Virus record (IMG/VR): IMGVR_UViG_3300022916_000683
Location: 1-26,837 of that record
Strand: one strand, 5' to 3'
Length of the DNA: 26,837 bases
Origin: a virus
Below are positions 3,677 through 26,837 of the stretch, piece by piece. The translations under genes were made by a program, and so were the position numbers. Under the pieces are notes generated by a model. That model had not been told where the DNA came from. It saw nothing but the letters and a program-made list of their open reading frames with translations, and searched no databases. The number at the start of each line of letters is the position of its first letter. The stretch's first letter is position 1.

Positions 3677-4341
3677 ATTGCCAGTACCATTTCCATGTTA
3701 TATGGTTTATATATACCTATGTCATAATTTGGATTTATATCTAATAGCAAGCTCTTTACCTTGTCTAATGTAATTTCACTATAATCACATACCATATTAC
3801 CATTAGAATCATACTGTTTTTGTCCAAACAAATGGGCATCATCTATTCCTATAATATGATTTTTAACATGATGTTTAGCTATTGTACTTAATTCTTTTAT
3901 CAATGGAACGTCATCATCACCTCTGCTATACTTTGATGCCCCAGCATGCGCATCTAACCAAAAACAAACAGGTTCATCTAATTCCGATAACAGACTCTTT
4001 AACATCTCTGGGGAGTCTCCACATATTAACTTTAACTTATTATCAAAGTAGTATTCACTACCACTAAAGGATTCATCCTTTTTATTCGTATGAAAATCAA
4101 ACTCTGATAAATCACCGGTGTGTTCCATAAACAACTTATATCTTTTAGATGCTACCTTGCATATTTCTTCACCAAGTTCTATTGTATATAACTTATCAAA
4201 AGGATTGAAGTTACCATTTGTCTCTAACATTCTATGTGGAACTCCTCCCATAAAAGTACCCGTTTCAACAAATACTTTAGGTAAAGTTACATCATGGTCA
4301 TGACAAAGTGATTGATAGATTTCCGGTAAAATATATCCCAT
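3673..4341 (-). CDS. Class I SAM-dependent methyltransferase
   Basis: This 222-aa protein has a Rossmann-type SAM site: VETGTFMGG at residues 25-33 matches motif I, TIE at 53-55 the acidic residue that binds the SAM ribose, and FWLDAHAG at 127-134 the motif IV region. GIDDAH near 165 adds a second acidic loop, which in related small-molecule methyltransferases can hold a metal. Located between gmd (1-base gap) and a CgeB-like glycosyltransferase (4-base ATGA overlap), it most likely methylates a sugar or a glycan hydroxyl. A protein or nucleic-acid target is less likely given the context but is not excluded. Confidence 0.75.
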   Translation of the reverse strand: MGYILPEIYQSLCHDHDVTLPKVFVETGTFMGGVPHRMLETNGNFNPFDKLYTIELGEEICKVASKRYKLFMEHTGDLSEFDFHTNKKDESFSGSEYYFDNKLKLICGDSPEMLKSLLSELDEPVCFWLDAHAGASKYSRGDDDVPLIKELSTIAKHHVKNHIIGIDDAHLFGQKQYDSNGNMVCDYSEITLDKVKSLLLDINPNYDIGIYKPYNMEMVLAI

Positions 4342-4342
4342 A

Positions 4343-5308: not shown

Positions 5309-5310
5309 AT

Positions 5311-6357
5311 TTACTTCTCCATATTTATATTTTCAAATTCATTATATGTATTAAATTTACTCTGATATTTTCCGAATGTAGATAAATTTTGATTAGCTAA
5401 TGCTTTTAAATTTTCATACCAATTTCCACGTTGATTTGGTCCCTTCTCTTGAGTACAAATTCCATCACCCACCATCTGTAGGCAATACTTTCTTTTCCCT
5501 GGGTGATTTCTATTGTGGACCTTTAATATATTTTTTACAATAAACTGTACATATTGGTCGCCCATTATTTGTTTACAACTATACATCATACTAGTATCAT
5601 CAACTGCATGACCTAAAATACATCTTGGAACATTCACGCCATTTTTCAACAAATCCGAACTCAGTACCAAAATAGATCCATCAAATTGCGGTTGTTTTAA
5701 AACTCGAACATCCAATTCATCACATCTTTGATTTATCTCATTCATCTCATCAATAGACATTGAGTATCTAATACTATGTGGTTCTGTAAATGCCTTTTCA
5801 TTTCTTGTACCATCTGGTAACTCAGTTTCATAATATTGTTTATCAGTAAATTCAGTATGCTCTAAAACTTTCCAAGAATCATCCCACATTTTTCTTAATG
5901 CAAACGTGACTACGTACCTATGTATATTATTTTCAATGCCATAACCATTAATTACTTCTAATGTACTAAAAACTTCTTTCGGTAATAAAGCATCTGACTC
6001 CCCCCATATTACATAGTCGTTATCAACACAACCAAAGTAATTTAAATCTCTTCTGTAGTCAACCATAGTTATTGGATTATCATTATCTTCGTATATTTTA
6101 TATGTAACATGACAACCTGTATCTTTAAGTGGATTAACCAAAGAGATAAACTTATCAATCAGTTTATCTTTAGATATTTCCTCTGTATTTATCTTTTCAA
6201 AATATTCTGAAATATTATAGAATAAATCTACTGTAATATTTTCCTTATTATCTACAGTTTCAATAGCATTAATAATACTCTGTATGTGTTCGTTGACCAT
6301 CTCAATTTCATAGAACATTATATGTGTTCCAATTATATATTTATTTTTTAGATTCAT
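5311..6357 (-). CDS. Putative GT-A glycosyltransferase
   Basis: I place the start at the ATG at 6357 (348 aa) because a GAGGA Shine-Dalgarno lies about five bases upstream; the ATG 12 bases earlier has none. The protein is not closely recognised. A WGESDALLP segment (ESD at about 120-122) is preceded by hydrophobic YVIW, as the DxD of GT-A enzymes usually is. The DGSILVLSSDLL region near 220-235 resembles the acceptor side. It stands between a GT8-like gene and gmd, so a glycosyltransferase role is reasonable but rests on one motif plus context. It overlaps the upstream gene by 17 bases. Composition is AT-rich. Confidence 0.6.
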   Translation of the reverse strand: MNLKNKYIIGTHIMFYEIEMVNEHIQSIINAIETVDNKENITVDLFYNISEYFEKINTEEISKDKLIDKFISLVNPLKDTGCHVTYKIYEDNDNPITMVDYRRDLNYFGCVDNDYVIWGESDALLPKEVFSTLEVINGYGIENNIHRYVVTFALRKMWDDSWKVLEHTEFTDKQYYETELPDGTRNEKAFTEPHSIRYSMSIDEMNEINQRCDELDVRVLKQPQFDGSILVLSSDLLKNGVNVPRCILGHAVDDTSMMYSCKQIMGDQYVQFIVKNILKVHNRNHPGKRKYCLQMVGDGICTQEKGPNQRGNWYENLKALANQNLSTFGKYQSKFNTYNEFENINMEK

Positions 6358-7108
6358 ATAATTCCTCATATGTTTGTTTCATCCAATATTCAGGTCCTGG
6401 TTTTGGCCATGTGTTAAAATGGTACACCCACCCCATTTTTGTAAAAAGTAAATCATCTGTCAACAATTCCTTTCTACCCATGTCCATCATGTTAAACTTA
6501 TACGGTAACAACTTAACATCTATTTTATTAATATCCAACAAAAAATTCAATGGAGTTTGATCAGTTCCGGTATGAAACGTTTCCTGCATTTCTACCAAAT
6601 TATCTTGATTAGAAAAATAAAAATTTATTATATCTGTAAAAAATTGTTTATGTCCTTTATTTACAATCTGAAATCCTCCATTTATATATTTCCACCAATC
6701 AATCATCTTCCCATCGAATATATATTTAGAATAATTTTCAATACTTCTTAAAATCCAATCATAACTACCACTATTATGCACACCACAATACTTATGCTCC
6801 GTTTTATTAAAAAAATTAGGACAATCTGGGTGAACTATAGTATCGGCATCTACCATTAAAACTTGATCATAATTAATGTTATTGTGTTTTAATATATCAA
6901 ATAAATAATATCGTTGCCAGCATATAGACATTTCTTCAATTGGGATTAATAAATCTTCCAACACAAAAATATCACAATTATTCTTATTACACCAATGTTT
7001 CCAACTATTTATAGAATAATGATATGGATTACTTCGTTCCTTATTATATCTACCATCACCATCCAATTTGACATCTAAAATAAAAACTATATTCTTTTTA
7101 TCACTCAT
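6341..7108 (-). CDS. GT-A (GT8-like) glycosyltransferase, paralogue of the next gene upstream
   Basis: From the ATG at 7108 this is 255 aa; the frame also has a TTG at 7120, but a GGTGGTGA element just before the ATG favours the shorter form. A LMVDADT motif (DADT about 87-90) is the DxD metal site, and KYINGGFQIVNK and HTGTDQTPLN follow in the order seen in GT8/GT34-type retaining galactosyl-, glucosyl- or mannosyltransferases. The final YHFNTWPKPG matches a WHFTGFP segment in the adjacent gene, so the two are tandem paralogues. It should transfer a hexose to a growing glycan; substrate unknown. Confidence 0.75.
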   Translation of the reverse strand: MSDKKNIVFILDVKLDGDGRYNKERSNPYHYSINSWKHWCNKNNCDIFVLEDLLIPIEEMSICWQRYYLFDILKHNNINYDQVLMVDADTIVHPDCPNFFNKTEHKYCGVHNSGSYDWILRSIENYSKYIFDGKMIDWWKYINGGFQIVNKGHKQFFTDIINFYFSNQDNLVEMQETFHTGTDQTPLNFLLDINKIDVKLLPYKFNMMDMGRKELLTDDLLFTKMGWVYHFNTWPKPGPEYWMKQTYEELYESKK

Positions 7109-7859
7109 ATTCACCACCAATATTTTCCCACAATCGCTTCATTATATCAATTCTATTTTCAATAGGAAATCCAGTGAAATGCCATACATATGCATATTTC
7201 ATAAAAAATGGAGTCTTATCTTCTTCTAACTGCCAATTGTAATTAAACATCTCTTTTCTATGTATAGCTGTTAAGTTCCAAGTTGGATTTATATATTTAA
7301 TTTTTATGTTATGTTTTCTCAGCATATAATTTAATACGGTTTGATCCGTACCAGAATGTGGTACATCCCAATTATCTAATACAGTTTTGTTATCCATATA
7401 AAACTGAAAAACTTTATCAATGAATGATTTATGCTTTCTATGAAATAAAATCATACCGGAATTTATGTATTTATAATAATCTAAATCTATACCTTTAAAA
7501 AATTTATTATACGCATTAATACTATTATTCACCCACCACATATTATCATTATCTATCACACCACAAAATTCATCATCAAATAAATCAAATGGATTTGGAG
7601 CATCCCATTTAATCATAGTATCTGCGTCTACCATAGCTATCTTTTCATATCTGTTATCAATATTATCAAATATCAAATATTTATTCCATTTAGATTTTAA
7701 TATTCTATTATCACCAGACCTTACAACCATAACATCTACATCATTTTTATTAGCCCACCCCATCCACGAATTAATTCCATATTCCGCATATTCTGAACAT
7801 TTTATTTGTGATGTTGCATCATCAATTGCAATTATATATACCAAATTTCTATTCAACAC
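7101..7859 (-). CDS. GT-A (GT8-like) glycosyltransferase, paralogue of the next gene downstream
   Basis: This protein of about 252 aa has AMVDADT (DADT about 78-81), KYINSGMILF, HSGTDQTVLNYML and VWHFTGFP in the same order and spacing as the next gene downstream. This makes a tandem pair. The start is uncertain: GTG at 7865, GTG at 7859 and TTG at 7856 are all in frame, and an AAGG element six bases before 7859 makes that GTG the best choice. It overlaps the end of the upstream gene. A retaining hexosyltransferase is the most likely activity. The two copies have diverged substantially, so they probably use different donors or acceptors. Confidence 0.75.
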   Translation of the reverse strand: MLNRNLVYIIAIDDATSQIKCSEYAEYGINSWMGWANKNDVDVMVVRSGDNRILKSKWNKYLIFDNIDNRYEKIAMVDADTMIKWDAPNPFDLFDDEFCGVIDNDNMWWVNNSINAYNKFFKGIDLDYYKYINSGMILFHRKHKSFIDKVFQFYMDNKTVLDNWDVPHSGTDQTVLNYMLRKHNIKIKYINPTWNLTAIHRKEMFNYNWQLEEDKTPFFMKYAYVWHFTGFPIENRIDIMKRLWENIGGEYE

Positions 7860-8550
7860 AACCACCCTTATGTATTTGTTCTATTATAATTTTTTTAGGT
7901 ATCGCGCACTTCATATTTTTCATCATAGTTAAATTTTGATGCTTTGACTCAAAATCATTTGGAGTTTTATATGAATAAATTTTAATATAATCACCCAATA
8001 ATTTTATAAATAATTCTTTTTCATGTACCGCGACAGTAGAATAAGTTTTTAATGGTGAATTTTTAGAATCCCACATCCAAATATGACTACCTTCTTCATA
8101 TTTATGTTTACTTCTAACATAAGGCTTAAATTTCGGATCCGGATCCCAATATCCCGGAAGGTATTTATGTATCTTAGCTAAAAAAATATGCTTAACATTA
8201 TTTTCAAACAAAGCCTCATTGAATATATTTTCCCAATCACGTACATCACCATGATAAACAAAATCTTCCGTTAAATATAAAACATATGGTGTCTTTATCT
8301 GTTTAACTAAATTCAATGTAATTTTTCCCCAATTTTTATCAAAATTCGTATAAAATTTTAAATTTTTCACATTATCTTCATACAACTCTCGTATAATATC
8401 TAAATTTTTATTAGTGTTATAGTTAACATAAAAAGAATAATCACTAAATACTTTAGCCATTTTAGGTAAATTTTCTAATAACACATCTAATCTCAAATCT
8501 TTAGTACAAATAAAATTCTGCACTATACTTACATTTTCATATCCGATCAC
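7849..8550 (-). CDS. GT2-like (GT-A) glycosyltransferase
   Basis: This 233-aa protein begins at a GTG at 8550 with AGAGGTGG upstream. A hydrophobic VLYLTEDF strand (TED about 94-96) stands where the DxD of family 2 glycosyltransferases would be, after a LKFYTNFDKNWGKITLNL stretch that resembles the donor-binding helix. The C-terminal half has HIWMWDSKNSPLKTYSTVAVH, aromatic-rich as in acceptor sites. No membrane segment is present. It is separated by 24 bases from the ColD-like gene. Assignment as a glycosyltransferase rests on fold-like patterning and neighbours. Confidence 0.62.
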   Translation of the reverse strand: MIGYENVSIVQNFICTKDLRLDVLLENLPKMAKVFSDYSFYVNYNTNKNLDIIRELYEDNVKNLKFYTNFDKNWGKITLNLVKQIKTPYVLYLTEDFVYHGDVRDWENIFNEALFENNVKHIFLAKIHKYLPGYWDPDPKFKPYVRSKHKYEEGSHIWMWDSKNSPLKTYSTVAVHEKELFIKLLGDYIKIYSYKTPNDFESKHQNLTMMKNMKCAIPKKIIIEQIHKGGCVE

Positions 8551-8574
8551 TATACCACCTCTAACTCATAATTT

Positions 8575-9723
8575 CTATAAACCATTATTCACTATATTAC
8601 TAATAAACTTTATTTCTTCTTCAATTAATGATGGGTGATTCGGCACATAAAATCCACACTCATCAATAATAGAAACTTTTGGTAATTTAAGTTCACCAAA
8701 TTTTTTAACATAAAATGGTTGAGTTCCCATTGAACCACAAATCATGGGTCTAACCTCAATTTGATTTTCTTGTAAACTTTTAACTATCTCATCCCTATTT
8801 GGACTTATTATTGGATATGCAAAATTAGATGTTAAAGAACCAGGATATGATTTCGGTTTCCAATAATCATTTTTTATTAACTCCTGATAAAGATTGTAAT
8901 TATGTTTTCTCTTTTTACCCCAATCATCTAACTTATCAATTTGAGATAATCCAATATATGCCTGTAAATCTGTTGACCTCATATTGAACCCCGAATAATA
9001 AAATGTATACATAGCATCAAATTCAGAAACACCCCACTCCTTTTGTAATTTAACTTGAGTTTTCTCACTCAAATCTCTATCCCAACCATGACTTCGTATA
9101 GATAATAATAACTCATATAACTCAAAATCATCAGTTGAAATTATACCACCTTCAATTGTAGAAATATGATGTCCAAAAAATGTAGAGAAACTTGACATTC
9201 TTCCAAATGTTCCAAGTTTTTGTCCTTTGTATTCACATCCCATTGACTCACAGGTATCTTCTAAAAGAATAACATTATACTCATCACACAGATTAACTAT
9301 CTTATCCATATTGGGAACTAAACCTAAAACAGAAACGAACATTAAAACAGACGGCGATTCATCCTGAAATATCTTCTCTAAATGTTCTAAGTCTACTGAC
9401 AAATCTTCCATATTAGAATCACATAAAACTGGTTTTAATCCTAATTGAATTACGGGCGACAAATCTGTCGCCCAAGCAACTGATGGAATTACTATTTTAT
9501 TATTTTTTAAATATTCACCCTGTTGTAATACAGATAACATCAACAGATTTGCCGATGACCCAGAATTAACAAAAACAGAATATTTTCTACCCAACCACTC
9601 TGAATATTTTCTTTCAAAATCTAAAGTAACTGGTCCCTTTGTTAATCGTGGGTAAGTTTTTAACCACTCAACTAAGCTATCAATATCTTTATTATCAATT
9701 GTGTCTTTTACTAAAGTTATCAT
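8575..9723 (-). CDS. colD: DegT-family sugar 3-dehydratase with His in place of Lys (ColD-like)
   Basis: This 382-aa protein has the DegT/DnrJ/EryC1/StrS aminotransferase fold: VNSGSSANLLML at 52-63 (phosphate-binding), IPSVAWATDL at 79-88, LEDTCESMG at 154-162, then FFGHHISTIEGG at 182-193. In aminotransferases of this family a Lys that binds PLP stands at H185; here it is His. The HHISTIEGG pattern is that of ColD, GDP-4-keto-6-deoxymannose 3-dehydratase, where PMP and a His base remove the C3 hydroxyl. RfbH (CDP-sugar) also has His but is longer, carries Fe-S cysteines and acts on CDP-sugars. Gmd downstream and a fucose/colitose synthase overlapping by 29 bases point to a GDP-sugar substrate. 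The residue swap is seen directly; the colitose assignment is inferred from family and context. Confidence 0.85.
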   Translation of the reverse strand: MITLVKDTIDNKDIDSLVEWLKTYPRLTKGPVTLDFERKYSEWLGRKYSVFVNSGSSANLLMLSVLQQGEYLKNNKIVIPSVAWATDLSPVIQLGLKPVLCDSNMEDLSVDLEHLEKIFQDESPSVLMFVSVLGLVPNMDKIVNLCDEYNVILLEDTCESMGCEYKGQKLGTFGRMSSFSTFFGHHISTIEGGIISTDDFELYELLLSIRSHGWDRDLSEKTQVKLQKEWGVSEFDAMYTFYYSGFNMRSTDLQAYIGLSQIDKLDDWGKKRKHNYNLYQELIKNDYWKPKSYPGSLTSNFAYPIISPNRDEIVKSLQENQIEVRPMICGSMGTQPFYVKKFGELKLPKVSIIDECGFYVPNHPSLIEEEIKFISNIVNNGL

Positions 9724-10594
9724 AAACTCTTTTTATCCCATCTCCTAACGGTGTAAATTTAAATTCTTTCATAACTGAAATTAGTTTGGAAGAATCAACA
9801 TCTTTTCTATACTGACCATCTGGTTTTGTATCATCATAAATAATTTCTAAATCACCCTTACCACAAGATTCCATTCCTATCTTAGTTATTTCTTTTATTG
9901 AATGAACATAATCTGGTGCCACATTAAAATTATCAACTATATTATTATCAATCATATAAACTATAACTCTTGCCAAATCTTCAGCATGCATAAATTGTCT
10001 TAGTGGTTTTCCAGTTCCCCATACTTCTACTGTATCTTTTGACTCATAAATTTTCTTAATAAGTGCTGATACAAAATGACTGTGATGTTCTTCATATTTA
10101 TCATGTTCACCATACAAATTACAAGGAATTAAATAAGACCATTCCTTTCCATATTGTTTTACATAAGAATTTATTTGGGTTGCCATACATCTCTTTGACA
10201 TAGCGTAAGCAAAATTATCTTTAGGTGGTGGTCCATTAAACAGTTCACCTTCTTTCATTGGATATACACCTACTTTATCTGGATAAATACAGGTGCTCAA
10301 AATAGCAATAACTTTTCCTACTTTAAAGTCATTACAAACTTTTAAAACATTAGTATTCATTAAAATATTTTCTTCAAGATAATCAACAGGATATGTCATA
10401 TTATCCATTATACCACCAACTCTAGCGGCCAGATGTATAACAATATCTGGTTCATATTCATTCATCATATCTCTAACTTCATCTATTCTTGTCAAATTAT
10501 AATCTTTAGATGATATATAAACTGCGTGAGGTAAAATATCTTTAAGATGTCTACCAACTAATCCACTACCACCTGTAACTAATATATTATTCAT
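9695..10594 (-). CDS. GDP-L-fucose synthase / GDP-L-colitose synthase-like epimerase-reductase
   Basis: This 299-aa short-chain dehydrogenase is of the Fcl/WcaG type. The NADP loop GGSGLVG is at 8-14. The catalytic S100 and Y130/K134 are present, as are C102 and H173, which match by spacing the Cys109 and His179 acid/base pair that epimerises C3 and C5 in E. coli GDP-fucose synthase. It would turn the Gmd product into GDP-L-fucose or, acting on the 3-deoxy product of the overlapping ColD-like gene, into GDP-L-colitose, as ColC does. Sequence alone cannot separate these. Its codons for residues 12-57 are repeated exactly in a second, truncated gene at 11186-11464. The ATG follows directly after the upstream methyltransferase stop. 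Confidence 0.9.
   Translation of the reverse strand: MNNILVTGGSGLVGRHLKDILPHAVYISSKDYNLTRIDEVRDMMNEYEPDIVIHLAARVGGIMDNMTYPVDYLEENILMNTNVLKVCNDFKVGKVIAILSTCIYPDKVGVYPMKEGELFNGPPPKDNFAYAMSKRCMATQINSYVKQYGKEWSYLIPCNLYGEHDKYEEHHSHFVSALIKKIYESKDTVEVWGTGKPLRQFMHAEDLARVIVYMIDNNIVDNFNVAPDYVHSIKEITKIGMESCGKGDLEIIYDDTKPDGQYRKDVDSSKLISVMKEFKFTPLGDGIKRVYDNFSKRHN
10423..10558. repeat. 136-bp perfect direct repeat, copy 1 (inside fcl/colC-like gene)
   Basis: These 136 bases are identical, base for base, to 11281-11416. The copy encodes residues about 12-57 of the GDP-fucose/colitose synthase-like enzyme. Identity stops abruptly on both sides (C versus A before it, T versus G after it). The two copies are in the same orientation with 722 bases between them, spanning a methyltransferase gene. 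Confidence 0.97.
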
Positions 10595-11185
10595 TTATTT
10601 ACTATCTTTATTGATGATAACTAACTTGGTATTACGGTGGCATGTTACACATCTAGCTATAGGTATATTCTCTAATAATTTTTCAGCTGTATATTCAGTA
10701 TCTTCTATAACATAAGTTCCACCCTCCATTAAGAGTGGATAAAAATTATTAAAAGTTTCAACCTGAGCTTTATAAGAATGAGCTCCGTCATCTATAATTA
10801 TATGAAAATACGGTTCATCATTATCACCACGAGTCTTTATATCCAATGAACTACCTTGTATAACATCACATAAATTTCCATTTTTAAATGCTCCCATAGA
10901 TTCTAATTTAGGTTTCATTAAATCAAATTCAGTAATATTTATATCAATTCCATATATGTTCCCATTACTAAAATAATCCGACCACATAGCTAAAGACCTA
11001 CCTTGAAAAATACCTATTTCTAAAAAATTAATTTCATCATTTCTAATTTCATCAAATAATTTAATATATACATCAGTATATCCACACTCTGATGCATCAC
11101 CGCCAGTATTCTGTCCACCAGTTCCTCTATTAGTAGCAGAAACTTTACCACCGTATTTACTTGAAAATTCGTTTAAAATATTCAT
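10595..11185 (-). CDS. Class I SAM-dependent methyltransferase
   Basis: This 196-aa protein carries a SAM-binding motif I, LEIGIFQGRS (55-64), an acidic GIDI (79-82) for the SAM ribose and IIDDGAHS (130-137), the pattern of the Methyltransf_24 / cephalosporin hydroxylase-like group often found in O-antigen and antibiotic-sugar clusters. In that family the DDGAH loop can hold a metal. It sits between the two repeat copies, with stop and start codons abutting both neighbours (no gap). Sugar O-methylation is the likely role. Loss or gain of this gene by recombination between the flanking 136-bp repeats is possible. Confidence 0.78.
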   Translation of the reverse strand: MNILNEFSSKYGGKVSATNRGTGGQNTGGDASECGYTDVYIKLFDEIRNDEINFLEIGIFQGRSLAMWSDYFSNGNIYGIDINITEFDLMKPKLESMGAFKNGNLCDVIQGSSLDIKTRGDNDEPYFHIIIDDGAHSYKAQVETFNNFYPLLMEGGTYVIEDTEYTAEKLLENIPIARCVTCHRNTKLVIINKDSK

Positions 11186-11464
11186 CTATTTTCCACCTCT
11201 TATATCCTCAGCTTCATCTTGTGCTTCGTCTGCAAAACTTGAACCGTCAAATCTATAATCAACTTGTTTCATAGCACCTATAGCGGCCAGATGTATAACA
11301 ATATCTGGTTCATATTCATTCATCATATCTCTAACTTCATCTATTCTTGTCAAATTATAATCTTTAGATGATATATAAACTGCGTGAGGTAAAATATCTT
11401 TAAGATGTCTACCAACGAGCCCTGAGCCTCCGGCTGTGAGCACTTTCTTTCGATCAATAATCAT
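11186..11464 (-). pseudogene. Chimeric, truncated GDP-fucose synthase-like fragment
   Basis: The start is taken as the ATG at 11464, which overlaps the upstream stop as ATGA; the 92-residue frame ends in a TAG touching the next ATG. Residues about 7-22 read KVLTAGGSGLVGRHLK, an epimerase nucleotide loop. From the LVGRHL segment to HLAA the DNA is identical to the full fcl/colC-like gene downstream. The bases before the repeat encode a homologous N-terminus in quite different, more GC-rich codons, so that end comes from a divergent relative. After HLAA the frame switches to an unrelated tail (IGAMKQVDYRF ... IRGGK). The catalytic Ser, Tyr and Lys are absent, so it cannot be an active enzyme. 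It may be a recombination scar or an assembly artefact; the preserved coupling signals favour a real scar. Confidence 0.75.
11281..11416. repeat. 136-bp perfect direct repeat, copy 2 (inside chimeric fragment)
   Basis: This is the exact second copy of 10423-10558 in the same orientation. The flanks differ: on the high-coordinate side the sequence is GC-richer and encodes a divergent version of the same epimerase N-terminus; on the low-coordinate side an unrelated tail follows. Confidence 0.97.
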
Positions 11465-12147
11465 GAACCCTCCCCCGCAACCTTTTTCCATCCTCTAATT
11501 TTCCGATGATATATAAAACAATCACCAAGCACAAAACTTCTCCCCCCAGCTCTCCATATTCTTTTTTGTAATTCTTCCTCATTACCTCCCCACGGATAAT
11601 TTTTTTCATCAATTAAATTTCCATCTTCCATTCGATATCGGTTATAAAATTCACGAGTAAAGCCAAACAAAAACCCATTTACCATATTGGAAAAATTTCC
11701 TGTCAATTCAGTAATTTGGTGAGTGGGTGCATTATGCTTTTGACACCCACCTAATATTCCATTACTTACTGGACCATATATACTACAATCATTAAATTCA
11801 TGTGAATATATTTGGCCAATAAACAAATTTATAGTGTCATTTAATTCCACATCATCATTACTTACTATAATAACATCACACCCATCATTAACTGCAGAAA
11901 TTATTCCATCATTCCATGTACCACTTAACCCCCGCAAAAACTGATCTTCAACTCGTATTATCTCAACATAATCATAATCTAAGTTTGGTAATTTTTTCGA
12001 GCTTGCATTATCAAACACATATAATTTAAAAGAATCATTTATACATTTAGTAGATTCACTATACTTCTTAATATATACATCACCGTTTGGCCGATATTCA
12101 TCACTAAAATGTGCTGTAACTACAATTCCTATTTTTATATTTTTCAC
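11461..12147 (-). CDS. GT2-family glycosyltransferase
   Basis: This 228-aa GT-A protein opens with IGIVVTAHFS, has VFDNASS at 44-50 (the common nucleotide-binding DNxS of rhamnosyl- and related transferases) and VSNDDV at 95-100 as the DxD metal motif. A WGGNEEELQKR segment near 189-199 fits the 'ED' catalytic/acceptor region. It starts at a GTG at 12147 with AGGAT upstream, 12 bases after the previous stop. Transfer of a deoxy sugar or hexose to a glycan is likely; the donor could be the GDP-sugar made nearby, but nothing in the sequence proves that. The last codons, near the recombinant fragment, are richer in GC than the rest. Confidence 0.8.
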   Translation of the reverse strand: MKNIKIGIVVTAHFSDEYRPNGDVYIKKYSESTKCINDSFKLYVFDNASSKKLPNLDYDYVEIIRVEDQFLRGLSGTWNDGIISAVNDGCDVIIVSNDDVELNDTINLFIGQIYSHEFNDCSIYGPVSNGILGGCQKHNAPTHQITELTGNFSNMVNGFLFGFTREFYNRYRMEDGNLIDEKNYPWGGNEEELQKRIWRAGGRSFVLGDCFIYHRKIRGWKKVAGEGS

Positions 12148-12159
12148 TTTAAAAATATC

Positions 12160-13173
12160 CTAAATTATCACACCATTGAGATTTTTAAAAATATCATAAA
12201 TATGCAATACTAAATTTTTTAAATTATATGTTTCTTGATATTTTTTTCTCATATTTTGCACAAGTCTTTCTCTGATATTATCATAATCCGATAATACATA
12301 ATCGATTTTTTCTTCTAAATTAGACCAATCATAATTAACGGCAATATAAGTTTCATCATCATCGTATATAAAGGGTTCTGATGCGATATGACTCATGTCA
12401 GGTTTCATTAAAACCGAACCGAACATAGCAGATTCTAAATCTCTTGGTGCCATCTCACCATAACCAAGTGGTGCCATAATAATTTTTGAGTTAAACATTT
12501 TCTGATAATATTCTTCTGTTGGAATTCGTGCACCATTAATTAATTTAGCAACATTATACTTGTCACCTAAAATATCCATTAGATTTTTTCTATGTGGATC
12601 ATAGTAATCAGTTTGACATATATCATGCTCATAAACTGGTTCTTTTGTGGGATAACCAAACATACACGATACGTCATATGATTTTTTTTGGTTATAATCT
12701 AACCAATTTGGTTGTATCGTATGTAACCAATTACACCCAGATAGTTTCATCTTGGGTTTTAACTCATCGATATCGGGAACTAAATAATCACCATCACCCC
12801 AATAATATCTACCATTAACCCAACCTTGTTTATATAAATCAAAATCTTTCAAGTAAGTATTTTTTAAAAACAATTTAGCATTTGATTCACGAAATACATC
12901 AATAGTACCAATTAAAGTAGTAGAATCTTGACCATCAACTATAAAGTAATCACCAGTAATTTTAGATAAAAACTCTACTCCATTGTCTATAGATTCTCTT
13001 AATGGTTTCTTTTTATCTATGATACTAGCTTGCCCAACCCAAGCATAATCATAGGTATCGGAAGTGGTGAATTCTACCCCAACTTCTCTAAATATATCTT
13101 GAGCCATTAGAAAGGGACGAAAAGTAGTTTCATTTCTATGTTTTTCAGGTTCATATAATTTAATTTTAATCAT
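12160..13173 (-). CDS. GT-B glycosyltransferase (Glyco_trans_1_2/exostosin-like)
   Basis: This protein of 337 aa starts at the ATG at 13173 (a GTG three bases earlier is also in frame). The C-terminal half has YYQKMFNSKIIMAPLGYG followed by APRDLESAMFGSVLMKPD, about residues 227-262. This is the donor-binding segment of GT-B transferases of the exostosin and Glyco_trans_1_2 type, with the R/E pair that contacts the NDP-sugar. The N-terminal half is a weaker Rossmann-like domain with YAWVGQASI. The DNA at the 3' end is extremely AT-rich. The start overlaps the previous small gene by eight bases. Substrates are unknown. Confidence 0.75.
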   Translation of the reverse strand: MIKIKLYEPEKHRNETTFRPFLMAQDIFREVGVEFTTSDTYDYAWVGQASIIDKKKPLRESIDNGVEFLSKITGDYFIVDGQDSTTLIGTIDVFRESNAKLFLKNTYLKDFDLYKQGWVNGRYYWGDGDYLVPDIDELKPKMKLSGCNWLHTIQPNWLDYNQKKSYDVSCMFGYPTKEPVYEHDICQTDYYDPHRKNLMDILGDKYNVAKLINGARIPTEEYYQKMFNSKIIMAPLGYGEMAPRDLESAMFGSVLMKPDMSHIASEPFIYDDDETYIAVNYDWSNLEEKIDYVLSDYDNIRERLVQNMRKKYQETYNLKNLVLHIYDIFKNLNGVII

Positions 13174-13390
13174 CACTATGAAACGGCGTAAGTACTTTTG
13201 AATTTAAAGAAAAATTCTTTACTAAAAATTTCTTTACAACTATCCAACCTTGTCTTGGATATTTTGTGTAAATTTCCGCATTGCCTATCTTTATAGCTTC
13301 CTTAATAACTTCTTTAACTAATTCCGCGTGAATATCACTTCCACGTCCTTCATATGACAATTCTATTCCATTTTTATTTTTATATTTCAT
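13166..13390 (-). CDS. Small hypothetical protein, 74 aa
   Basis: I do not recognise this protein. It is 74 aa, basic, with a central helix-like HAELVKEVIKEAIKIG and no cysteines or membrane segment. The start ATG overlaps the upstream GT2 stop as ATGA and its end overlaps the next glycosyltransferase, so it is embedded in the operon and probably translated by coupling. It could be a small partner of one of the flanking glycosyltransferases. Confidence 0.6.
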   Translation of the reverse strand: MKYKNKNGIELSYEGRGSDIHAELVKEVIKEAIKIGNAEIYTKYPRQGWIVVKKFLVKNFSLNSKVLTPFHSDD

Positions 13391-14019
13391 CTCATAATCC
13401 CCGCGTATTTTTCATTTTGCTGTTCTTGTTTTTCAATCGTCTTATAATGTAATATACAAAAAGGTTTTTCCGTAGGTAAGTGTGAATAGGTCTGAAAACC
13501 AATTAACATCTCATGTACGGGTTTTTCCCATTTTATGTTTGGTCTATTACGAAATACTCGACCTTGCCAATCAGGAAAATTAACCCAACCATCATCATTA
13601 ACATTCCAATGCCAATATTTAGCATGTTGTTCAGTTAAACCATCTACTGTATTTATTCTTGGTAAGTAAATTAAATCAATTTCGTTCTCTTCAACAATAC
13701 TATGTATGTTTTTTATCAACCAAAGACTTATCATCTCATCAGCATCAAGGTTAAAACTATAATCTCCACTACACATACCTTTTAGATGATTCTTCTGTGA
13801 AGCAAAATCACCCAATAGATTTCGTTGTTCAAATACTATATCGTGTGCAGATACATAGAAATCTAATAATTGTTTTGTTTTTTTATCATCAGAATAATCA
13901 TCAAGTATTACAATCTCATCTTCAGGTTGTTTCCACTTGATTAAGAACTTTAGTAACTTCTCTAATGAATTCGTTTCGTTATGAGTTAATATGGAATAAC
14001 TAATCTTCACTAATGCCAA
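13387..14019 (-). CDS. GT2-family glycosyltransferase (KdtX/WaaE-like)
   Basis: This 210-aa GT-A enzyme begins with ISYSILTHNETNSLEKLL, the typical GT2 N-terminal strand and helix. It has IVILDDYSDD at 36-45, and FNLDADEMI at 89-97 with the DxD metal motif. HWNVNDDGWVNFPDWQGRVF and KWEKPVHEM later match the acceptor region of WaaE/KdtX-like beta-glucosyltransferases of LPS cores. The start is a TTG at 14019 overlapping the upstream gene; a GTG at 14010 is an alternative, and neither has a strong Shine-Dalgarno. It probably adds a hexose to a lipid- or protein-linked glycan on the cytoplasmic face. Confidence 0.85.
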   Translation of the reverse strand: MALVKISYSILTHNETNSLEKLLKFLIKWKQPEDEIVILDDYSDDKKTKQLLDFYVSAHDIVFEQRNLLGDFASQKNHLKGMCSGDYSFNLDADEMISLWLIKNIHSIVEENEIDLIYLPRINTVDGLTEQHAKYWHWNVNDDGWVNFPDWQGRVFRNRPNIKWEKPVHEMLIGFQTYSHLPTEKPFCILHYKTIEKQEQQNEKYAGIMR

Positions 14020-20280: not shown

Positions 20281-20625
20281 CTATTTTATTATTAAATGTG
20301 ATAATTGTATAACAATAATAACAACTGATAAAACCAAACTTATTATTGTTCTCGTGTCAGGTACTTCGTGTAAAATCAAATAAGTCAATACGGTAAATAC
20401 TATTGTAGCCATTCCAAATCCAATGGGCCTAACATACCAATAATTTTGAAAATATTCATAATACCATTTTGTCCCATACCAAAAAGCAATACTAATCGGT
20501 ATACCACCAAATACAACCCACCATAAAGACTTAGCCCATTCATATTTAAATTGACCTTGCATATGAAACCAAGCCCATATATGACCTATCAATGATATTC
20601 CTAATGCCATCCATAGCTTACTCAT
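20281..20625 (-). CDS. Small multi-pass membrane protein, 114 aa
   Basis: The protein has about four hydrophobic segments (roughly residues 4-20, 34-52, 66-86 and 92-112) with short charged loops, including HMQGQFKYEWAK between the first two. It resembles small inner-membrane proteins that I recall from marine T4-like phages, with a shared QGQFK ... P-S ... GF pattern; I know no function for them. It could be a transporter of the small-multidrug-resistance size class, but I see no defining motif. Its ATG overlaps the gp62-like stop, so it is translated together with the clamp loader. Confidence 0.68.
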   Translation of the reverse strand: MSKLWMALGISLIGHIWAWFHMQGQFKYEWAKSLWWVVFGGIPISIAFWYGTKWYYEYFQNYWYVRPIGFGMATIVFTVLTYLILHEVPDTRTIISLVLSVVIIVIQLSHLIIK

Positions 20626-21041
20626 CTAATTTTCATCTTCTTTATTTCTTTATCGGATTTTCCATATTTTTTTACTAACAATATCAATTCTTCTTTTGAC
20701 ATCAAATCATAGTATTCAGCAGCCTGATGTTTACTTACTTCAAAGTAAGTCATAATGAAAGGAACAACTAAATCATTTGTCTTTTCTTTCTTACCACTCA
20801 AATACTTTAAGTAAGTCTTTTTCTTTGGTAGTAAATTACAATAGAATTGATACACGGCTTTATGTGGCATAACTTCTATCGTATATGTTTGAAAGTGATT
20901 TACGAAAGGTAAAAACTCATCACCCATGCTCAAATAACGATTTACCATAAATGGACTAAACTTCTTTTTGTCGGCATCCGAAAAAGAATCCCAATCTCGT
21001 TTACCGACAAATAGTTCATTAATCCAACTAAATAAGTTCAT
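20622..21041 (-). CDS. 62: Clamp-loader small subunit (gp62-like)
   Basis: This 139-aa protein matches the marine-phage form of T4 gp62: SPFMVNRYLSM near residues 29-39, VNHFQTYTIEVMPHKAVYQFY near 46-66, LPKKKTYLKYLSG near 71-83, and IMTYFEVSKHQAAEYYDLMSKEEL near 95-118. gp62 joins four gp44 ATPase subunits to open and place the sliding clamp on primer-template DNA. At 139 aa it is shorter than T4 gp62 (187 aa). It follows gp44 with a zinc-ribbon gene between them, whereas in T4 44 and 62 are directly adjacent. The start overlaps the zinc-ribbon gene by 14 bases. Confidence 0.82.
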   Translation of the reverse strand: MNLFSWINELFVGKRDWDSFSDADKKKFSPFMVNRYLSMGDEFLPFVNHFQTYTIEVMPHKAVYQFYCNLLPKKKTYLKYLSGKKEKTNDLVVPFIMTYFEVSKHQAAEYYDLMSKEELILLVKKYGKSDKEIKKMKIR

Positions 21042-21267
21042 TTATCTCATTTAACGGTAATATCTCACCACAGTTTCCACAATTAAACACTTGAATTGGA
21101 GCTATGACTTCTTTACCCGTTGGTGACATAATAGCTGATATTTTCTTTATGACATACCCTTGAATGAAAATCTTATTATTGCATTCTAGACAAGTCATTG
21201 TTTCTGCATCCTGTAAGTCTACCTGGACTTCTTGTTTTGGTAGTGGTTTCATTGGTTTTGTACTCAT
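21028..21267 (-). CDS. Zinc-ribbon protein of the T4-like replication region, 79 aa
   Basis: The protein has two CxxC knuckles, CLEC near residues 26-29 and CGNC near 63-66, with a conserved-looking middle IKKISAIMSPTGKEVIAPIQVF. Similar small zinc-ribbon proteins occur beside clamp-loader genes in marine T4-like phages; I know no assigned function. It is wedged between gp44 and gp62 with overlaps at both ends, so its product is made with the clamp loader and may touch it, the DNA or the RNA polymerase. Confidence 0.75.
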   Translation of the reverse strand: MSTKPMKPLPKQEVQVDLQDAETMTCLECNNKIFIQGYVIKKISAIMSPTGKEVIAPIQVFNCGNCGEILPLNEINELI

Positions 21268-22175
21268 TGTAATTTTCCTAATATGCTTGACATGGTTGCA
21301 ATAAAGTTAATCTCTTTATCCACACACATCACATCTTGATAAGCTCCCTTTGATATTTCAACAATAACATCGGGTATCTTATCACTTGTTATGTTTTCAA
21401 CTTCATCATAAAGAAACCTAAACAATTCCGTGTAGTCACTAAAACCACTATCAGCAATCAATTTACGAATTGACCGAATATCAGAATTATTTTGAATCAT
21501 CTCCAAAAACTGAAGTTTAAACTCATTATGTAACATTCCATCTTTGTCAATCTTCAACTTACCATCTATTGACATTCGTTGTAATTCATTGATTACCCTT
21601 CGTAAATCAGGATAACCAGCAGTTACAACGAGTGCCAAATCATCCAAGTCAAAAGATATGTTCTCTTTCTCCAAGATAGTCTTAGCATGTAGAGCAACAT
21701 CTTTTTTACTTGGTGGTACTATTTTGTAGCTTTGACAGCGACTCTGTATGGGATCAATAATCTTTTCTACATAATTACAGGTTAAGATAAACCTACAATG
21801 AGCAGAAAAGGTTTCCATTAGATTACGTAGAGCAGGTTGAGCAGAATTTACATTTAAGTAATCGGCTTCATCAAGAATAACTATTTTCATTGGCTTGAAA
21901 CCAATTGAAGAAGCAAATGTCTTCAATTTGTCTCGAACCAAATCTATGTTTCTTTCATCCGACGCATTAATATATAAATAATCACACTCAACGTGATTAA
22001 CAATAATCTTAGCAAGTGTGGTTTTTCCACCGCCAGCTCTACCATATAAAAGTAAATGTGGGACATTTCCATCAGTTATAAACCTCTCTACTTTTGATTT
22101 AAGATGGTCATTACCAACATATGTTGATAAATCTTTCGGCCGGTATTTTTCTACAAATAATCCATGTGATTCCAT
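21264..22175 (-). CDS. 44: Clamp-loader AAA+ ATPase (gp44-like)
   Basis: This 303-aa AAA+ protein has the RFC-family start VEKYRPKDLSTYVG (8-21), Walker A GRAGGGKT at 45-52, Walker B IVILDEAD at 98-105, a sensor 1 segment LTCN near 131-134 and the SRC motif at 145-147, which supplies the trans-acting arginine finger. It is slightly shorter than T4 gp44 (319 aa). With the gp62-like subunit it loads the clamp encoded just upstream. It starts one base after the clamp stop codon and its end overlaps the zinc-ribbon gene. All ATPase residues look intact. Confidence 0.96.
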   Translation of the reverse strand: MESHGLFVEKYRPKDLSTYVGNDHLKSKVERFITDGNVPHLLLYGRAGGGKTTLAKIIVNHVECDYLYINASDERNIDLVRDKLKTFASSIGFKPMKIVILDEADYLNVNSAQPALRNLMETFSAHCRFILTCNYVEKIIDPIQSRCQSYKIVPPSKKDVALHAKTILEKENISFDLDDLALVVTAGYPDLRRVINELQRMSIDGKLKIDKDGMLHNEFKLQFLEMIQNNSDIRSIRKLIADSGFSDYTELFRFLYDEVENITSDKIPDVIVEISKGAYQDVMCVDKEINFIATMSSILGKLQ

Positions 22176-22176
22176 A

Positions 22177-22890
22177 TTAAACCTGCTGTGAAACTAACCA
22201 ATATTTAACATTGAAGTCATCAACATTAAACTCGATGTGAGCCAAACCTTTATCACTAATCTGAAGTGTTGCTTTGGAACACTCTTTATTAGCATTTAAA
22301 AGTTCTTTAAAAAGATTAGCATTAAAGACAATCGAATCCGTCATATTAACAGCATCACTTTTTGCCTTAATACTAATACGATTTGAATTAATATCGCTAT
22401 ATCCAATTACAAACTCAACTCCACCATCTACTGGATTAATAGCAAATGTATCAACATCACCTAAAGCACCTTTACCTCGAATGAATGAATTGATAAACTG
22501 ACTATCAATATTCACAATCGTATTAAACTCAGGTATGTTCTTTAATTCAGGTACATCTGGTATGACACCAATGGCCGCCAATACATAATCAGCTTTCATT
22601 ATCGAATCCGATAACTTAAAGGCAACTGGCATATTATCAACTTCAGTTAAACTGAAATCAACCTTGTCGGCTAAAGTACCTATCATTTTTGACAATAATG
22701 GTGTATCATAAACACCAACTTCAAACTCAGGTAAAGTTTGTTTTGACAAAGTTAATTCACCTAATAGACTTTTGTCTGGTGAAATGAATCGAGTGGATAA
22801 TGTATCTCCAGTTGATTCCCACTTGACGGAATTTATACTTCCACCAAGATTGTATTTTTGGATAAATGTATCCAATGTTATTTTATTCAT
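22177..22890 (-). CDS. 45: DNA polymerase sliding clamp (gp45-like)
   Basis: This 237-aa protein matches T4 gp45 in size (228 aa) and layout: two similar domains, with repeated hydrophobic strands and FNANLFKELLNANKE near residues 192-206 resembling the gp45 C-terminal domain. The N-terminus (MNKITLDTFIQKY) also fits. It forms a trimeric ring that tethers the polymerase and, in T4, activates late transcription. The start ATG at 22890 has AGGAG eight bases upstream and its own sigma-70-like promoter at 22914-22942. It lies directly between polymerase and loader. Confidence 0.92.
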   Translation of the reverse strand: MNKITLDTFIQKYNLGGSINSVKWESTGDTLSTRFISPDKSLLGELTLSKQTLPEFEVGVYDTPLLSKMIGTLADKVDFSLTEVDNMPVAFKLSDSIMKADYVLAAIGVIPDVPELKNIPEFNTIVNIDSQFINSFIRGKGALGDVDTFAINPVDGGVEFVIGYSDINSNRISIKAKSDAVNMTDSIVFNANLFKELLNANKECSKATLQISDKGLAHIEFNVDDFNVKYWLVSQQV

Positions 22891-22943: not shown

Positions 22944-25472
22944 TTAAAAAAACCTTTCAATTGAAGTTTTTTTATCAATGGGCATATCCCATTTCATACT
23001 CTCATAGAACAACTCTATTTTCTTCTTTAGGGCTTTATCAAATAACTTATCCCTATCTATATATTGAGCTACGAAATCCATAATCTCTTTAGGATCATCA
23101 TAACCCTTGTAAGCGATAGCATCGATATTAAATGGATTGTCTTTCAGATAAACCCATCTAATTTTACTACTATTTCTAATCTGCTCGTGATTATTGACTT
23201 TAAAATGTTTTAACAAGTCATTATAGATAACTGATGCCTTAACGTGGACTGGTGCACCCTTTTCCATCTCGGTAAACATAGTCTTACTACCAAAACCATG
23301 TTTTGTCTTTTTCTTCGTGTATTTCTTTATACCCTTGACACCACTCGGTAAAGATATGTTTGTAATATCATGGTCGTTTAGACCCTTTTTAAATTCTAAA
23401 ATGAATTCATCAATTCTTTCTTTTGGAACTTTAAAAAGAATAGCTTTCAATACCTTAGTCATGAAATCACGAAATGCTGGTGGGAATGAACTACGGACAA
23501 TATCTAATCCCTTAACATCTAGCTTCTCACATGGAGTACCACCATCATTAATAATCCATTGACCATATCGTTTTTTAGTAACCCAAAAAGCAGCCTTAGC
23601 AATCATTTCTTGTTTAATCTCAAACCTATGTCCTTCATGTATGTTTAAGAAGTTTTTAGCAAAGTAATCATATGATTTGTTAATATATATTTGAACCTCT
23701 GAAGCAATATCAAGAATTTGTTCTGTCATAAACTTCTCATCTTTAACATCAGCATTTGGGAATCTATCCTTAACTAATGGTAAAGCACTATAGAATACTG
23801 AATCCGTATCCGTGTAGATACAATAGTCTTTATCGGTTTTCAATATCTTATTATAGTAGTTATTGGTAACTTTCTCCGTGAACTGAATTAACTTCACTCC
23901 AGTAGTCGTTGTACCCTCGGCATTATCTATATCATAAAACCTAAATACCGATAACCCCAAGACACCATATAAACTGTTAAGTAAAATCTTTTGAACGTGC
24001 TGTCTTCTATTGAAATGACTACTTAATTCTTCATCACCCGCTTTACCATATTTTTTAGACAATGCTCTATATTCAACTCTTTCATCAAACCACTTTTCCA
24101 AGATAGCTGGTATAACACCTTTCTTGGTTAAATCATATATAACTCCGTTGGAAGATATTGAGACATTATTTTTATTGAAGAAATCTTTCAACTCACCATT
24201 ACTGAATCGTCTAATTATCTTACCGTTCTTTTCTACGGAATATGTCTTTGTGACTCCTTTAATAAACTCTTCCGCATCCCAACCGTTAATCTTACCTATC
24301 TTGGTTTCGGGAGACATATTCAAACTCATAATGATACTTGGATACATAGAAGTTAAATCCAAATCAAATACCCAATCATAACAACCAGGTTCAGGACTCT
24401 TTACGTAAGCACCACTAAACCTACCATCCGAACCATCATAACTAACATCGTAGGCTTTACTCGGAGCGACTAAATTTAAACTTTTTAAATAAACTAACAT
24501 CGCACCTTCAATATAACGAGAACTAAAGTAAACCTCTTCATAAGGTATCCTACCTAAATGACATACACCCTTTGCTAAATCAATTAATTTTAATTTATCA
24601 TCAAGAGCCTTAACAATCTTAACGTCATTCAAGTTATATTCAATAAACTTATCAATATCATCTCTGTATAAATCATCTAATGTGCCTTCATACTCAACCT
24701 TACCAATTCCAACCTCAATAGTTCCTATATGGTCTAATCTATAACTTGATTGCTGAGTAAAGGTGAACTTTTTATATAAATCCATATAATCCAAAGCACT
24801 AACACCAGCAATTCGATACATCTTTTTGTTTGGGTTATACTTTACGATTTGAATCGGTGAAAGGGCATTGGCAAACTCCTCACCCAAGACTTTAGATATT
24901 CTATTATATAAATAAGGTACATCAAACCCATTTATGTTCCAACCAGTAATTATAGTCGGTTTAACATTCATCCAATATTGTAAAATAGCTTTTAATAACT
25001 CTATCTCGGTCTTGAAGAATTGAATATCAACCCCATCCTTAATATTACCTTTACCTTCACCTAAAACATAAACTGAATACTCTCCATTATGTTTAGTATA
25101 AAATGCTACTGATGTGATTTTATTACTAGCTTTTGCTGGTTCAGGGAAACCATCCGTGACTTCTACTTCAATGTCAAAGAATAGTTCTCTGTGATTTTTA
25201 GATGGTTCGTCTGAATCTGAATATCTATCTAAAAGTACTCTCGTATCTAATGGTATATCCGATTCGAATACTTTGCCTGTTTTAAAATCTTCTTCTGTCC
25301 AATACGTTACTTTCTTTAACTTATCTCCGTAAATAGAACGATATTGACCACTTCCGTCTTTTACGTAAGCGTAATTCTTAAATATAAAATTTTGATAACC
25401 AGCAACATCATCCCATAGATGAACTTCTACTTGATTACCACCTCTCTTTTCACACCACAAATTTTGATAAAT
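22944..25472 (-). CDS. 43: Family B DNA polymerase with 3'-5' exonuclease (gp43-like), probable AUU start
   Basis: Counted from the AUU at 25472 the protein is 842 aa. Exonuclease motifs are intact: FFDIEVE (D100/E102), NGFDVPYL (D184) and YNLNDVK (Y279/D283). Polymerase motif A is DLTSMYPSII (D372), motif B KILLNSLYG (about 495-503) and motif C YTDTDS (D555/D557); KKRYG follows. It ends SIERFF, like a clamp-binding peptide. It replicates the phage genome with the clamp and loader downstream. The longest open frame begins with a TTG at 25529, but that codon is the -35 box of a strong promoter, so it cannot be the start on that transcript. AAGGGAG lies six bases before the AUU, and T4 gp43 also begins with a Tyr a few residues in. 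The next TTG (25460) is too far from the Shine-Dalgarno. Confidence 0.95.
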   Translation of the reverse strand: MYQNLWCEKRGGNQVEVHLWDDVAGYQNFIFKNYAYVKDGSGQYRSIYGDKLKKVTYWTEEDFKTGKVFESDIPLDTRVLLDRYSDSDEPSKNHRELFFDIEVEVTDGFPEPAKASNKITSVAFYTKHNGEYSVYVLGEGKGNIKDGVDIQFFKTEIELLKAILQYWMNVKPTIITGWNINGFDVPYLYNRISKVLGEEFANALSPIQIVKYNPNKKMYRIAGVSALDYMDLYKKFTFTQQSSYRLDHIGTIEVGIGKVEYEGTLDDLYRDDIDKFIEYNLNDVKIVKALDDKLKLIDLAKGVCHLGRIPYEEVYFSSRYIEGAMLVYLKSLNLVAPSKAYDVSYDGSDGRFSGAYVKSPEPGCYDWVFDLDLTSMYPSIIMSLNMSPETKIGKINGWDAEEFIKGVTKTYSVEKNGKIIRRFSNGELKDFFNKNNVSISSNGVIYDLTKKGVIPAILEKWFDERVEYRALSKKYGKAGDEELSSHFNRRQHVQKILLNSLYGVLGLSVFRFYDIDNAEGTTTTGVKLIQFTEKVTNNYYNKILKTDKDYCIYTDTDSVFYSALPLVKDRFPNADVKDEKFMTEQILDIASEVQIYINKSYDYFAKNFLNIHEGHRFEIKQEMIAKAAFWVTKKRYGQWIINDGGTPCEKLDVKGLDIVRSSFPPAFRDFMTKVLKAILFKVPKERIDEFILEFKKGLNDHDITNISLPSGVKGIKKYTKKKTKHGFGSKTMFTEMEKGAPVHVKASVIYNDLLKHFKVNNHEQIRNSSKIRWVYLKDNPFNIDAIAYKGYDDPKEIMDFVAQYIDRDKLFDKALKKKIELFYESMKWDMPIDKKTSIERFF

Positions 25473-25499: not shown

Positions 25500-25529
25500 A
25501 ATATACAACAAAAACCCTATACAAGTCAA
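25500..25529 (-). promoter_or_regulatory. Sigma-70-like promoter for the DNA polymerase gene
   Basis: A TTGACT -35 box (25529-25524) and TATATT -10 box (25505-25500) on the minus strand are 18 bases apart. The predicted start near 25493 gives a leader of about 20 bases with the Shine-Dalgarno. The -35 box lies in the loop of an inverted repeat (25510-25537), which may affect its use. Confidence 0.8.
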
Positions 25530-25539: not shown

Positions 25540-25579
25540 AGTAAAACGGGGGCTATATTTCAAGCCCCCGCACTTTACT
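25540..25579 (-). terminator. Intrinsic terminator after the TonB-dependent receptor gene
   Basis: On the minus strand, CGGGGGCT and AGCCCCCG (arms 25563-25570 and 25547-25554) form an 8-bp GC-rich stem with an 8-base loop, extended by AGTAAA/TTTACT outer arms. It is followed by TTTT and lies three bases after the receptor stop codon. It should end receptor transcription and isolate it from the polymerase promoter just downstream. Confidence 0.9.
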
Positions 25580-25581
25580 AT

Positions 25582-26837
25582 TTAAAAATTAACAGATAGT
25601 CCTACATTGTAGTATCTTGGTGTTCCCAAGAATACTTCAGCGTTATGAGCTAAGTGAAGTTTATCACCATACCCATTGTACTGACTATTGTCAACTGCGT
25701 CTTGAACATAAACACCATCAAGAGCATTAAAGATATGAGCACTAAGCGTCATATCATAACCACCAATTTCTGGTAGTTTGTATGCTATATGTAAGTCAAG
25801 TTTTGAATAGCCAGGAGCTTTCCAAACTTGAGTTTCATCGGCACCATCTTCATCGACTTCACGAGAATCGGGAGACCAATCAGCGTAATTATCATCATAC
25901 ATTTTATACAAACCCTGTATGCTAAGTCCTTCCAATGGTTTAAGTGTTAAACCACCAACATAAGCTGTTTGTGGTTGGTCACCGACCATTAGACCATCAA
26001 GAGCGTACTCATACTGAGTTGTAGTTTGACCGACAACTTGGTTGTCGTCATTATACTCCATCTCTTGATAATCACCTTTGGCATCACCATCGAACTGCCA
26101 AGTACCTTTACTGAATACTAAATTCAAGTCAACCATTTCGTGAAGAGCAATTTTAGACTCTACTTCAAAACCAGTATGACTTTGATTTACACCAGTTAGA
26201 TAAATGACATCTGTATCACCTGAATCTCCAGCACCTGTTTCAACAGATTTGGTAAGGTTTCTATCTTTCCATTGAGTATTATATGAACTCAATTTAAGAT
26301 CAACATTACCACTTGCATACTTTCCACCAATTTCGAAACTTGTAAATTTCTCATTGATTGGGTTGGTAGCAACTGTACCATCAAATTTGATTACATTATC
26401 TAAGATGGGTGGCTTCTCAACATACCCACCATTAATAAATGCAGACATTCTATCATCAAGGTTATAAACACCACCACCTTTCACTTGGAAAGTTGTAATA
26501 GCATCAGCCGAAACTTTAGAAGCATCAACAGCAAAATGGTCAAGATAAGAATATCCTATTGCGGATACTCCACCCATTCCATAAAGGTTGAATTTGTCAG
26601 TAGAATATTTACCTTGTAAAAATCCACCAATCCAATCTACGGTTGTTTCATTATGATAAGCGATAATATCACCTAACATAACTTTCTTCCCATCAGTAGC
26701 ATTTTTATCGGCGTAATCAACATAGTAATCACCACCTAATAAATCACGAACTTCACGTGCGTGTTCTATACCAGCAGTTCGCCAATCAATACCAACTTGA
26801 ACTTCAAGTTCATCTGATACATCATAGTTTAATTTAG
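25582..26837 (-). CDS. TonB-dependent outer-membrane receptor, C-terminal part (5' end outside window)
   Basis: The frame is open through the right edge (417 residues visible), so the Met at 26679 is internal. The sequence is a chain of short alternating strands with aromatic girdles (VYNLDDRMSAFINGGY, KFTSFEIGGKYASGNVDLKLSS, YSKLDLHIAYKL, LSAHIFNALDGVY) and ends YYNVGLSVNF with a terminal Phe, the outer-membrane beta-barrel insertion signal. Plug and TonB box would lie beyond the window. Such receptors import iron chelates, cobalamin or glycans. The GIDWRTAG and EVRDLLGGDYYVDYAD stretches near the edge are, from memory, typical of Marinimicrobia receptors. GC looks slightly higher than in the polymerase. 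It may be phage cargo, a host gene beside an integrated element, or a chimera. Confidence 0.88.
   Translation of the reverse strand, partial: KLNYDVSDELEVQVGIDWRTAGIEHAREVRDLLGGDYYVDYADKNATDGKKVMLGDIIAYHNETTVDWIGGFLQGKYSTDKFNLYGMGGVSAIGYSYLDHFAVDASKVSADAITTFQVKGGGVYNLDDRMSAFINGGYVEKPPILDNVIKFDGTVATNPINEKFTSFEIGGKYASGNVDLKLSSYNTQWKDRNLTKSVETGAGDSGDTDVIYLTGVNQSHTGFEVESKIALHEMVDLNLVFSKGTWQFDGDAKGDYQEMEYNDDNQVVGQTTTQYEYALDGLMVGDQPQTAYVGGLTLKPLEGLSIQGLYKMYDDNYADWSPDSREVDEDGADETQVWKAPGYSKLDLHIAYKLPEIGGYDMTLSAHIFNALDGVYVQDAVDNSQYNGYGDKLHLAHNAEVFLGTPRYYNVGLSVNF

Follow-up and report, generated by a model that had tools for sequence, protein, structure and literature searches.

A TonB-dependent receptor gene with a pseudoknot leader beside the polymerase gene of T4-like phages that probably infect Marinimicrobia

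The marine megaphage Mar_Mega_1 carries a SusC-like TonB-dependent receptor (TBDR), which its authors read as a nutrient-uptake gene (PMC9723777). The receptor studied here is likewise a TBDR encoded by a marine phage, but the two are only ~12% identical and belong to different subfamilies, and for the megaphage neither a leader RNA nor linkage to an adenosylcobalamin-dependent class II ribonucleotide reductase (RTPR) has been described. Gut viral bins of Bacteroides and Alistipes phages are enriched in plug and barrel domains (PMC8857322), a result that differs from ours in consisting of domain counts alone and in coming from the human gut. A literature search, with most subscription journals outside its coverage, returned no description of the cassette, leader RNA or host group reported below.

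The DNA analysed here, referred to as the window, is the whole IMG/VR contig IMGVR_UViG_3300022916_000683 (26,837 bp). An earlier note had called an outer-membrane receptor gene of bacterial type at its right end, next to a T4-like replisome and insulated by its own terminator. The features of this region are as follows.

20622-21041, minus strand: clamp loader small subunit, gp62-like (PHROGs and a further profile search)
21264-22175, minus strand: clamp loader large subunit, gp44-like (PHROGs)
22177-22890, minus strand: probable sliding clamp, in the gp45 position
22944-25472, minus strand: T4-type family B DNA polymerase (polB), with a likely start near 25472 judged from relatives
25500-25529, minus strand: sigma-70-like polB promoter, TTGACT-N18-TATATT, kept in relatives that lack the TBDR; far edge of the cassette
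25547-25570, minus strand: terminator-like hairpin, CGGGGGC...GCCCCCG then UUUU, 3' of the TBDR gene; part of the cassette
25582-26835, minus strand: 3' part of the TBDR gene, 417 codons plus stop, open to the contig end

The contig end truncates the receptor gene, and the remaining 417 amino acids, its C-terminal part, gave no Pfam, PHROG or NCBIfam match in profile scans of the fragment alone, so the original receptor call exceeded what such scans of the window show. The call was nevertheless borne out by a relative, L002, which is 99.87% identical to the window over 10,214 bp and extends beyond its end. The parts missing from the window lie in L002 as follows.

6427-8436 of L002: RTPR gene
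8453-8486 of L002: pseudoknot
8516-11254 of L002: full-length TBDR gene

The complete receptor has 912 amino acids in L002, with a CarboxypepD_reg domain, plug and barrel. Both Plug (E 4e-14) and CarbopepD_reg_2 exceed their cut-offs in this protein, and PF07715 Plug, above cut-off in L002, was matched in 22/22 full-length members. An AlphaFold2 model of the full-length protein (pLDDT 83.5) has a barrel-plus-plug fold, for which Foldseek returned PqqU (E down to 4e-41), Fiu, FhuA and BtuB; in a viral structure library, the sole full-length TBDR match was 'TonB-dependent receptor SusC' of an uncultured marine phage (A0A8D9FQQ5). By inspection, the N-terminus is hydrophobic, as a signal peptide would be, and a LEVLASRA segment, the putative TonB box, is conserved. 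The phage genes contain no internal stops. Assignment to the SusC/RagA subfamily was rejected, as NCBIfam TIGR04056 scored 43.9 bits against a cut-off of 368.25 and no SusD partner is adjacent, the neighbours being RTPR and polB.

The claimed separation of receptor and polymerase genes also stands: the TBDR stop codon and the polB -35 box are 53 bases apart (25582 to 25529), the hairpin segment 25538-25584 folds with -24.2 kcal/mol (z -5.75), and relatives repeat both hairpin and promoter. The hairpin was missing from a simple terminator scan because its U-tract is only four bases long. In a divergent subgroup, tRNA genes follow the receptor and replace the terminator and polB promoter (L065:11261-11410 and L069:11258-11555). 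For the T4-like replisome, PHROGs support polB, gp44 and gp62, and the clamp, which has no significant family match, is placed by synteny. Adjoining the replisome, positions 1-14019 of the window hold a long series of sugar-nucleotide and glycosyltransferase-like genes; within it, a 101-aa frame at 11186-11491 recapitulates the beginning of the epimerase-like protein of 9695-10594 (shared stretch GGSGLVGRHLKDILPHAVYISSKDYNLTRIDEVRDMMNEYEPDIVIHLAA), apparently a partial gene duplication.

The receptor gene is phage-borne. Among 2.9 million viral contigs scanned, we confirmed 179 relatives of the TBDR, almost all of them next to phage replication genes; in most of the loci fetched, polB, clamp, gp44 and gp62 come after the receptor, and several metagenomes share one near-identical population that carries it. 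Extension to the right, a check proposed with the original call, revealed no ordinary bacterial run: upstream of the TBDR, L002 encodes gp32-like, UvsX/RecA, 5'-3' exonuclease, DnaB-type helicase (gp41), methylase and ribonucleotide reductase genes. The T4-type major capsid gene gp23 is also present on three TBDR contigs, of 164,845, 130,380 and 57,144 bp. Cultured phages in INPHARED include no close relative of the receptor, the best full-length matches being 28-29% identical, and the closest isolate polymerase is that of Microcystis phage Mel-JY01 (45%).

The suggestion that the receptor would name the host lineage is also supported. Its nearest bacterial proteins are those of Candidatus Marinimicrobia/Neomarinimicrobiota (SAR406), with up to 68% identity, and 129/245 genomes searched contain a match at E < 1e-50. 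A tree of 137 sequences places the phage copies (81 rows) in one group nested inside the Marinimicrobia receptors, and the other FCB phyla fall outside. The identification of Marinimicrobia as the host lineage of these phages is thus well supported by phylogeny, and many ocean viruses with this TBDR probably infect Marinimicrobia. The phage genes are under purifying selection (median dN/dS 0.13), and tree, dN/dS and capsid gene together fit the definition of an auxiliary metabolic gene as one derived from the host and kept under selection in phages. Host-type receptors of Marinimicrobia (for example, L082 and L090) are up to 68% identical to the phage copy over the whole length and share its domains and putative TonB box; unlike it, they are chromosomal and monocistronic and have no pseudoknot. 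The host orthologue is a lone gene with housekeeping neighbours (primase-like and yqeY-like), so its substrate cannot be read from context, and no conserved transport gene was found among its neighbours. One Marinimicrobia MAG contig with bacterial flanking genes, L081, carries a receptor (953-3733) that is nested among the phage copies and adjoins a second TBDR gene. Since a single phages-only clade without L081 was rejected (AU test, p 1.7e-5), phage and host have probably exchanged the gene at least once more, and the L081 receptor may possibly reflect phage-to-host transfer.

A central result of the wider comparison is the genomic setting of the receptor. Where a locus extends that far, its gene directly upstream of the receptor is RTPR, which exceeds the NCBIfam equivalog cut-off (TIGR02505, 353.6 against 340.05 bits); RTPR is present on 14/14 TBDR contigs that cover the region, the one exception to adjacency being L076, where it lies elsewhere on the contig. 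Pseudoknot, TBDR and terminator together make up a cassette that some loci carry between RTPR and polB and others lack. When loci were scanned by RTPR only, 42/66 scorable loci had both TBDR and pseudoknot, and the other 24 had polB and neither. Over all loci scored, a set selected in part for receptor or pseudoknot, both were present in 187, both absent in 24, and none was mixed. At 16 of the 24 empty sites, polB begins 70-108 bases after RTPR, with a similar TTGAC...TATATT promoter between them. The RTPR tree implies at least five gains or losses of the cassette. Identities of RTPR and TBDR are correlated (0.44, Mantel p 0.001), whereas uvsX, exo, gp41 and polB correlate at 0.63-0.80 among themselves and at only 0.05-0.29 with RTPR or TBDR, indicating that RTPR and receptor pass between phages in part together.

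Other genes occupy the same junction in relatives. Glutamine synthetase (Pfam Gln-synt_N/C) is found there in some that lack the TBDR (L355:3042-4034 and L377:5380-6432), so the RTPR-polB junction looks like a hotspot for the insertion of auxiliary genes. At L363:2903-3412, and also in L364, the junction encodes a protein that matches dockerin weakly and carries Por_Secre_tail, the C-terminal sorting domain of type IX secretion, suggesting a phage-encoded protein that may be secreted via the host T9SS. Four relatives (L367:7026-8474, L388, L390 and L391) have at the junction a 483-aa protein, which in L367 has no Pfam match.

The leader element between RTPR and TBDR is a 34-base H-type pseudoknot, with a Shine-Dalgarno sequence and ATG ~30 bases further on. 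It consists of P1 (NNNGG/CCNNN), a CAGNN loop, P2 (RRCRCA/TGYGYY) and an A-rich third loop. In 55 distinct sequences, 97.7% of cells are paired and compensatory changes occur at 6/11 pairs; covariation is 0.282, compared with 0.129 for shuffled alignments (0/500 of which reach the observed value) and at most 0.097 for slid controls. Nested minimum-energy folding of the leader shows nothing, as expected for a pseudoknot. Among the matches listed from a pattern scan of viral contigs, only leaders between RTPR and TBDR were found where the contig had room to judge, and the 164,845-bp contig contains the element once. No pseudoknot was found in the TBDR-less loci searched, and Rfam 15 gave no match at gathering and nothing meaningful at E up to 10. 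In hosts, the pattern occurred in 0/15 genomes, and a covariance model run on 244 genomes gave weak matches alone, the best at 30 bits and not adjoining a TBDR. One Marinimicrobia genome has, at L422:1501, a hairpin (ACACACCTGTAGAAAAATGTGT; E 9e-5 for one genome) in which P2, P1' and loop 3 of the pseudoknot recur and the 5' strand of P1 is missing, a likeness that is possibly due to chance. A frameshifting pseudoknot was rejected, as the RTPR stop codon precedes the element in L002.

On balance, we favour a model in which a T4-like phage lineage carries a host-derived TonB-dependent transporter cassette that raises uptake of a scarce nutrient for phage synthesis, a reading we consider probable but well short of certain. 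A T4-like phage infecting Marinimicrobia would have taken a host outer-membrane TonB-dependent transporter and kept it as a pseudoknot leader-receptor-terminator cassette between the class II ribonucleotide reductase and polymerase genes. Judging from gene order, the receptor would be made alongside the replication and dNTP genes, and the pseudoknot may tune its translation; the protein would be exported by Sec and BAM, be powered by the host TonB-ExbBD and bring in more of a scarce nutrient on which phage synthesis depends. A search of 18 phage contigs found no ExbB, so the receptor would rely on the host TonB system. The plug is 0.90 identical between phage and host, plug and TonB box are as conserved between the two as within hosts, and the long loops of the phage receptor are not hypervariable. 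These features favour a working transporter over the decoy that the earlier note had offered among its options and that finds no support here. A copy of the host receptor that looks functional, set beside the replication genes and preceded by the pseudoknot, suggests that the phages may upgrade the nutrient uptake of infected cells. Structure permits no substrate call, since Foldseek does not separate PqqU, Fiu, FhuA and BtuB, all of them 12-14% identical.

Several other explanations have to be weighed against nutrient import. The window by itself holds just a truncated gene at a contig end, as a metagenome chimera or a functionless passenger might appear, but the TBDR-polB junction recurs identically in many independent contigs, the empty sites have clean edges, and the low dN/dS and intact reading frames speak against a passenger; we regard this explanation as extremely improbable. 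A special case of nutrient import is that the receptor supplies cobalamin to the adenosylcobalamin-dependent RTPR for dNTP synthesis, with the pseudoknot reading cobamide or nucleotide state. The equivalog-level assignment of RTPR and its shared movement with the TBDR fit this proposal, and in three Saprospiraceae the end of a homologue is closely followed by a cobalamin riboswitch and a BtuB-like gene, an arrangement that is suggestive only; the homologue is upstream of the switch, and so the idea that it is under riboswitch control was rejected. However, cobalamin riboswitches, present in 118/149 Marinimicrobia genomes, mostly precede another TBDR family in the loci sampled; that family is ~23% identical to ours where alignable and lies on other contigs, and a BtuB-type assignment by orthology to the host riboswitch-controlled receptor was rejected at this identity. 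No cobalamin riboswitch was found at gathering before homologues in nine Marinimicrobia loci, there was no B12-box signal above control before 106 bacterial homologues, and 24 phage loci keep RTPR without a receptor. We therefore consider the cobamide proposal unlikely.

We hold a similarly low opinion of receptor replacement or superinfection exclusion, in which the receptor made by the phage takes the place of, or dilutes, the host receptor on which this phage or its rivals depend. There are precedents: the Lc porin of the lambdoid phage PA-2 replaces OmpC, and the lipoprotein Llp of phage T5 blocks the TBDR receptor FhuA. TBDRs are common phage receptors. Among the solved structures nearest to the model, PqqU and FhuA both serve as phage receptors, and FhuA appears there in complex with T5 pb5 and also with Llp, so competition for phage adsorption is easily imagined too. 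A location among replication genes would suit exclusion, and at no more than 68% identity to known host copies the phage protein has diverged enough to change its loops. Yet long-loop identity is higher among phages (0.71) than among hosts (0.59), and between phage and host (0.60) it equals that between hosts, so nothing here points to an arms race. The TonB box and plug, for which exclusion would have no use, are retained, and this reading leaves the link to RTPR unexplained.

The cassette makes two things testable: the import substrate of a widely conserved FCB receptor and whether phages benefit from that import. Phages boost photosynthesis or central metabolism, but to our knowledge phage remodelling of outer-membrane nutrient import in a major uncultured ocean lineage is barely documented. 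The cassette is common and points to its host, and its uncatalogued structured RNA lends itself to tests in vitro without culture of phage or host. The leader RNA and the pairing with RTPR, neither of them visible from the window, are in our view the most valuable parts of the locus.

Short H-type pseudoknots also form the preQ1-I and SAM-II riboswitches and the translational operator of T4 gene 32. Like the phage leader, these elements have an A-rich third loop and precede a ribosome binding site. The position of the phage pseudoknot, about -63 to -30, resembles that of the gene 32 operator; compared with preQ1-I, the phage P2 would pair the bases that form the preQ1 pocket. It is conceivable, but in our judgement quite doubtful, that the element is a phage riboswitch of a new class, responding to the receptor substrate or to the dNTP or cofactor state. 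RTPR, pseudoknot and receptor would in that case make up a self-sufficient unit, gauging and importing whatever phage DNA synthesis lacks. Phage-borne riboswitches are known but rare, one being the glutamine riboswitch of the OM43 phage Melnitz (PMC9004378). Melnitz is, like the phages described here, a marine T4-like phage with a structured RNA that controls, or in the present case would control, one of its own genes, but its RNA belongs to a known family and controls tmRNA, unlike the leader of the receptor cassette.
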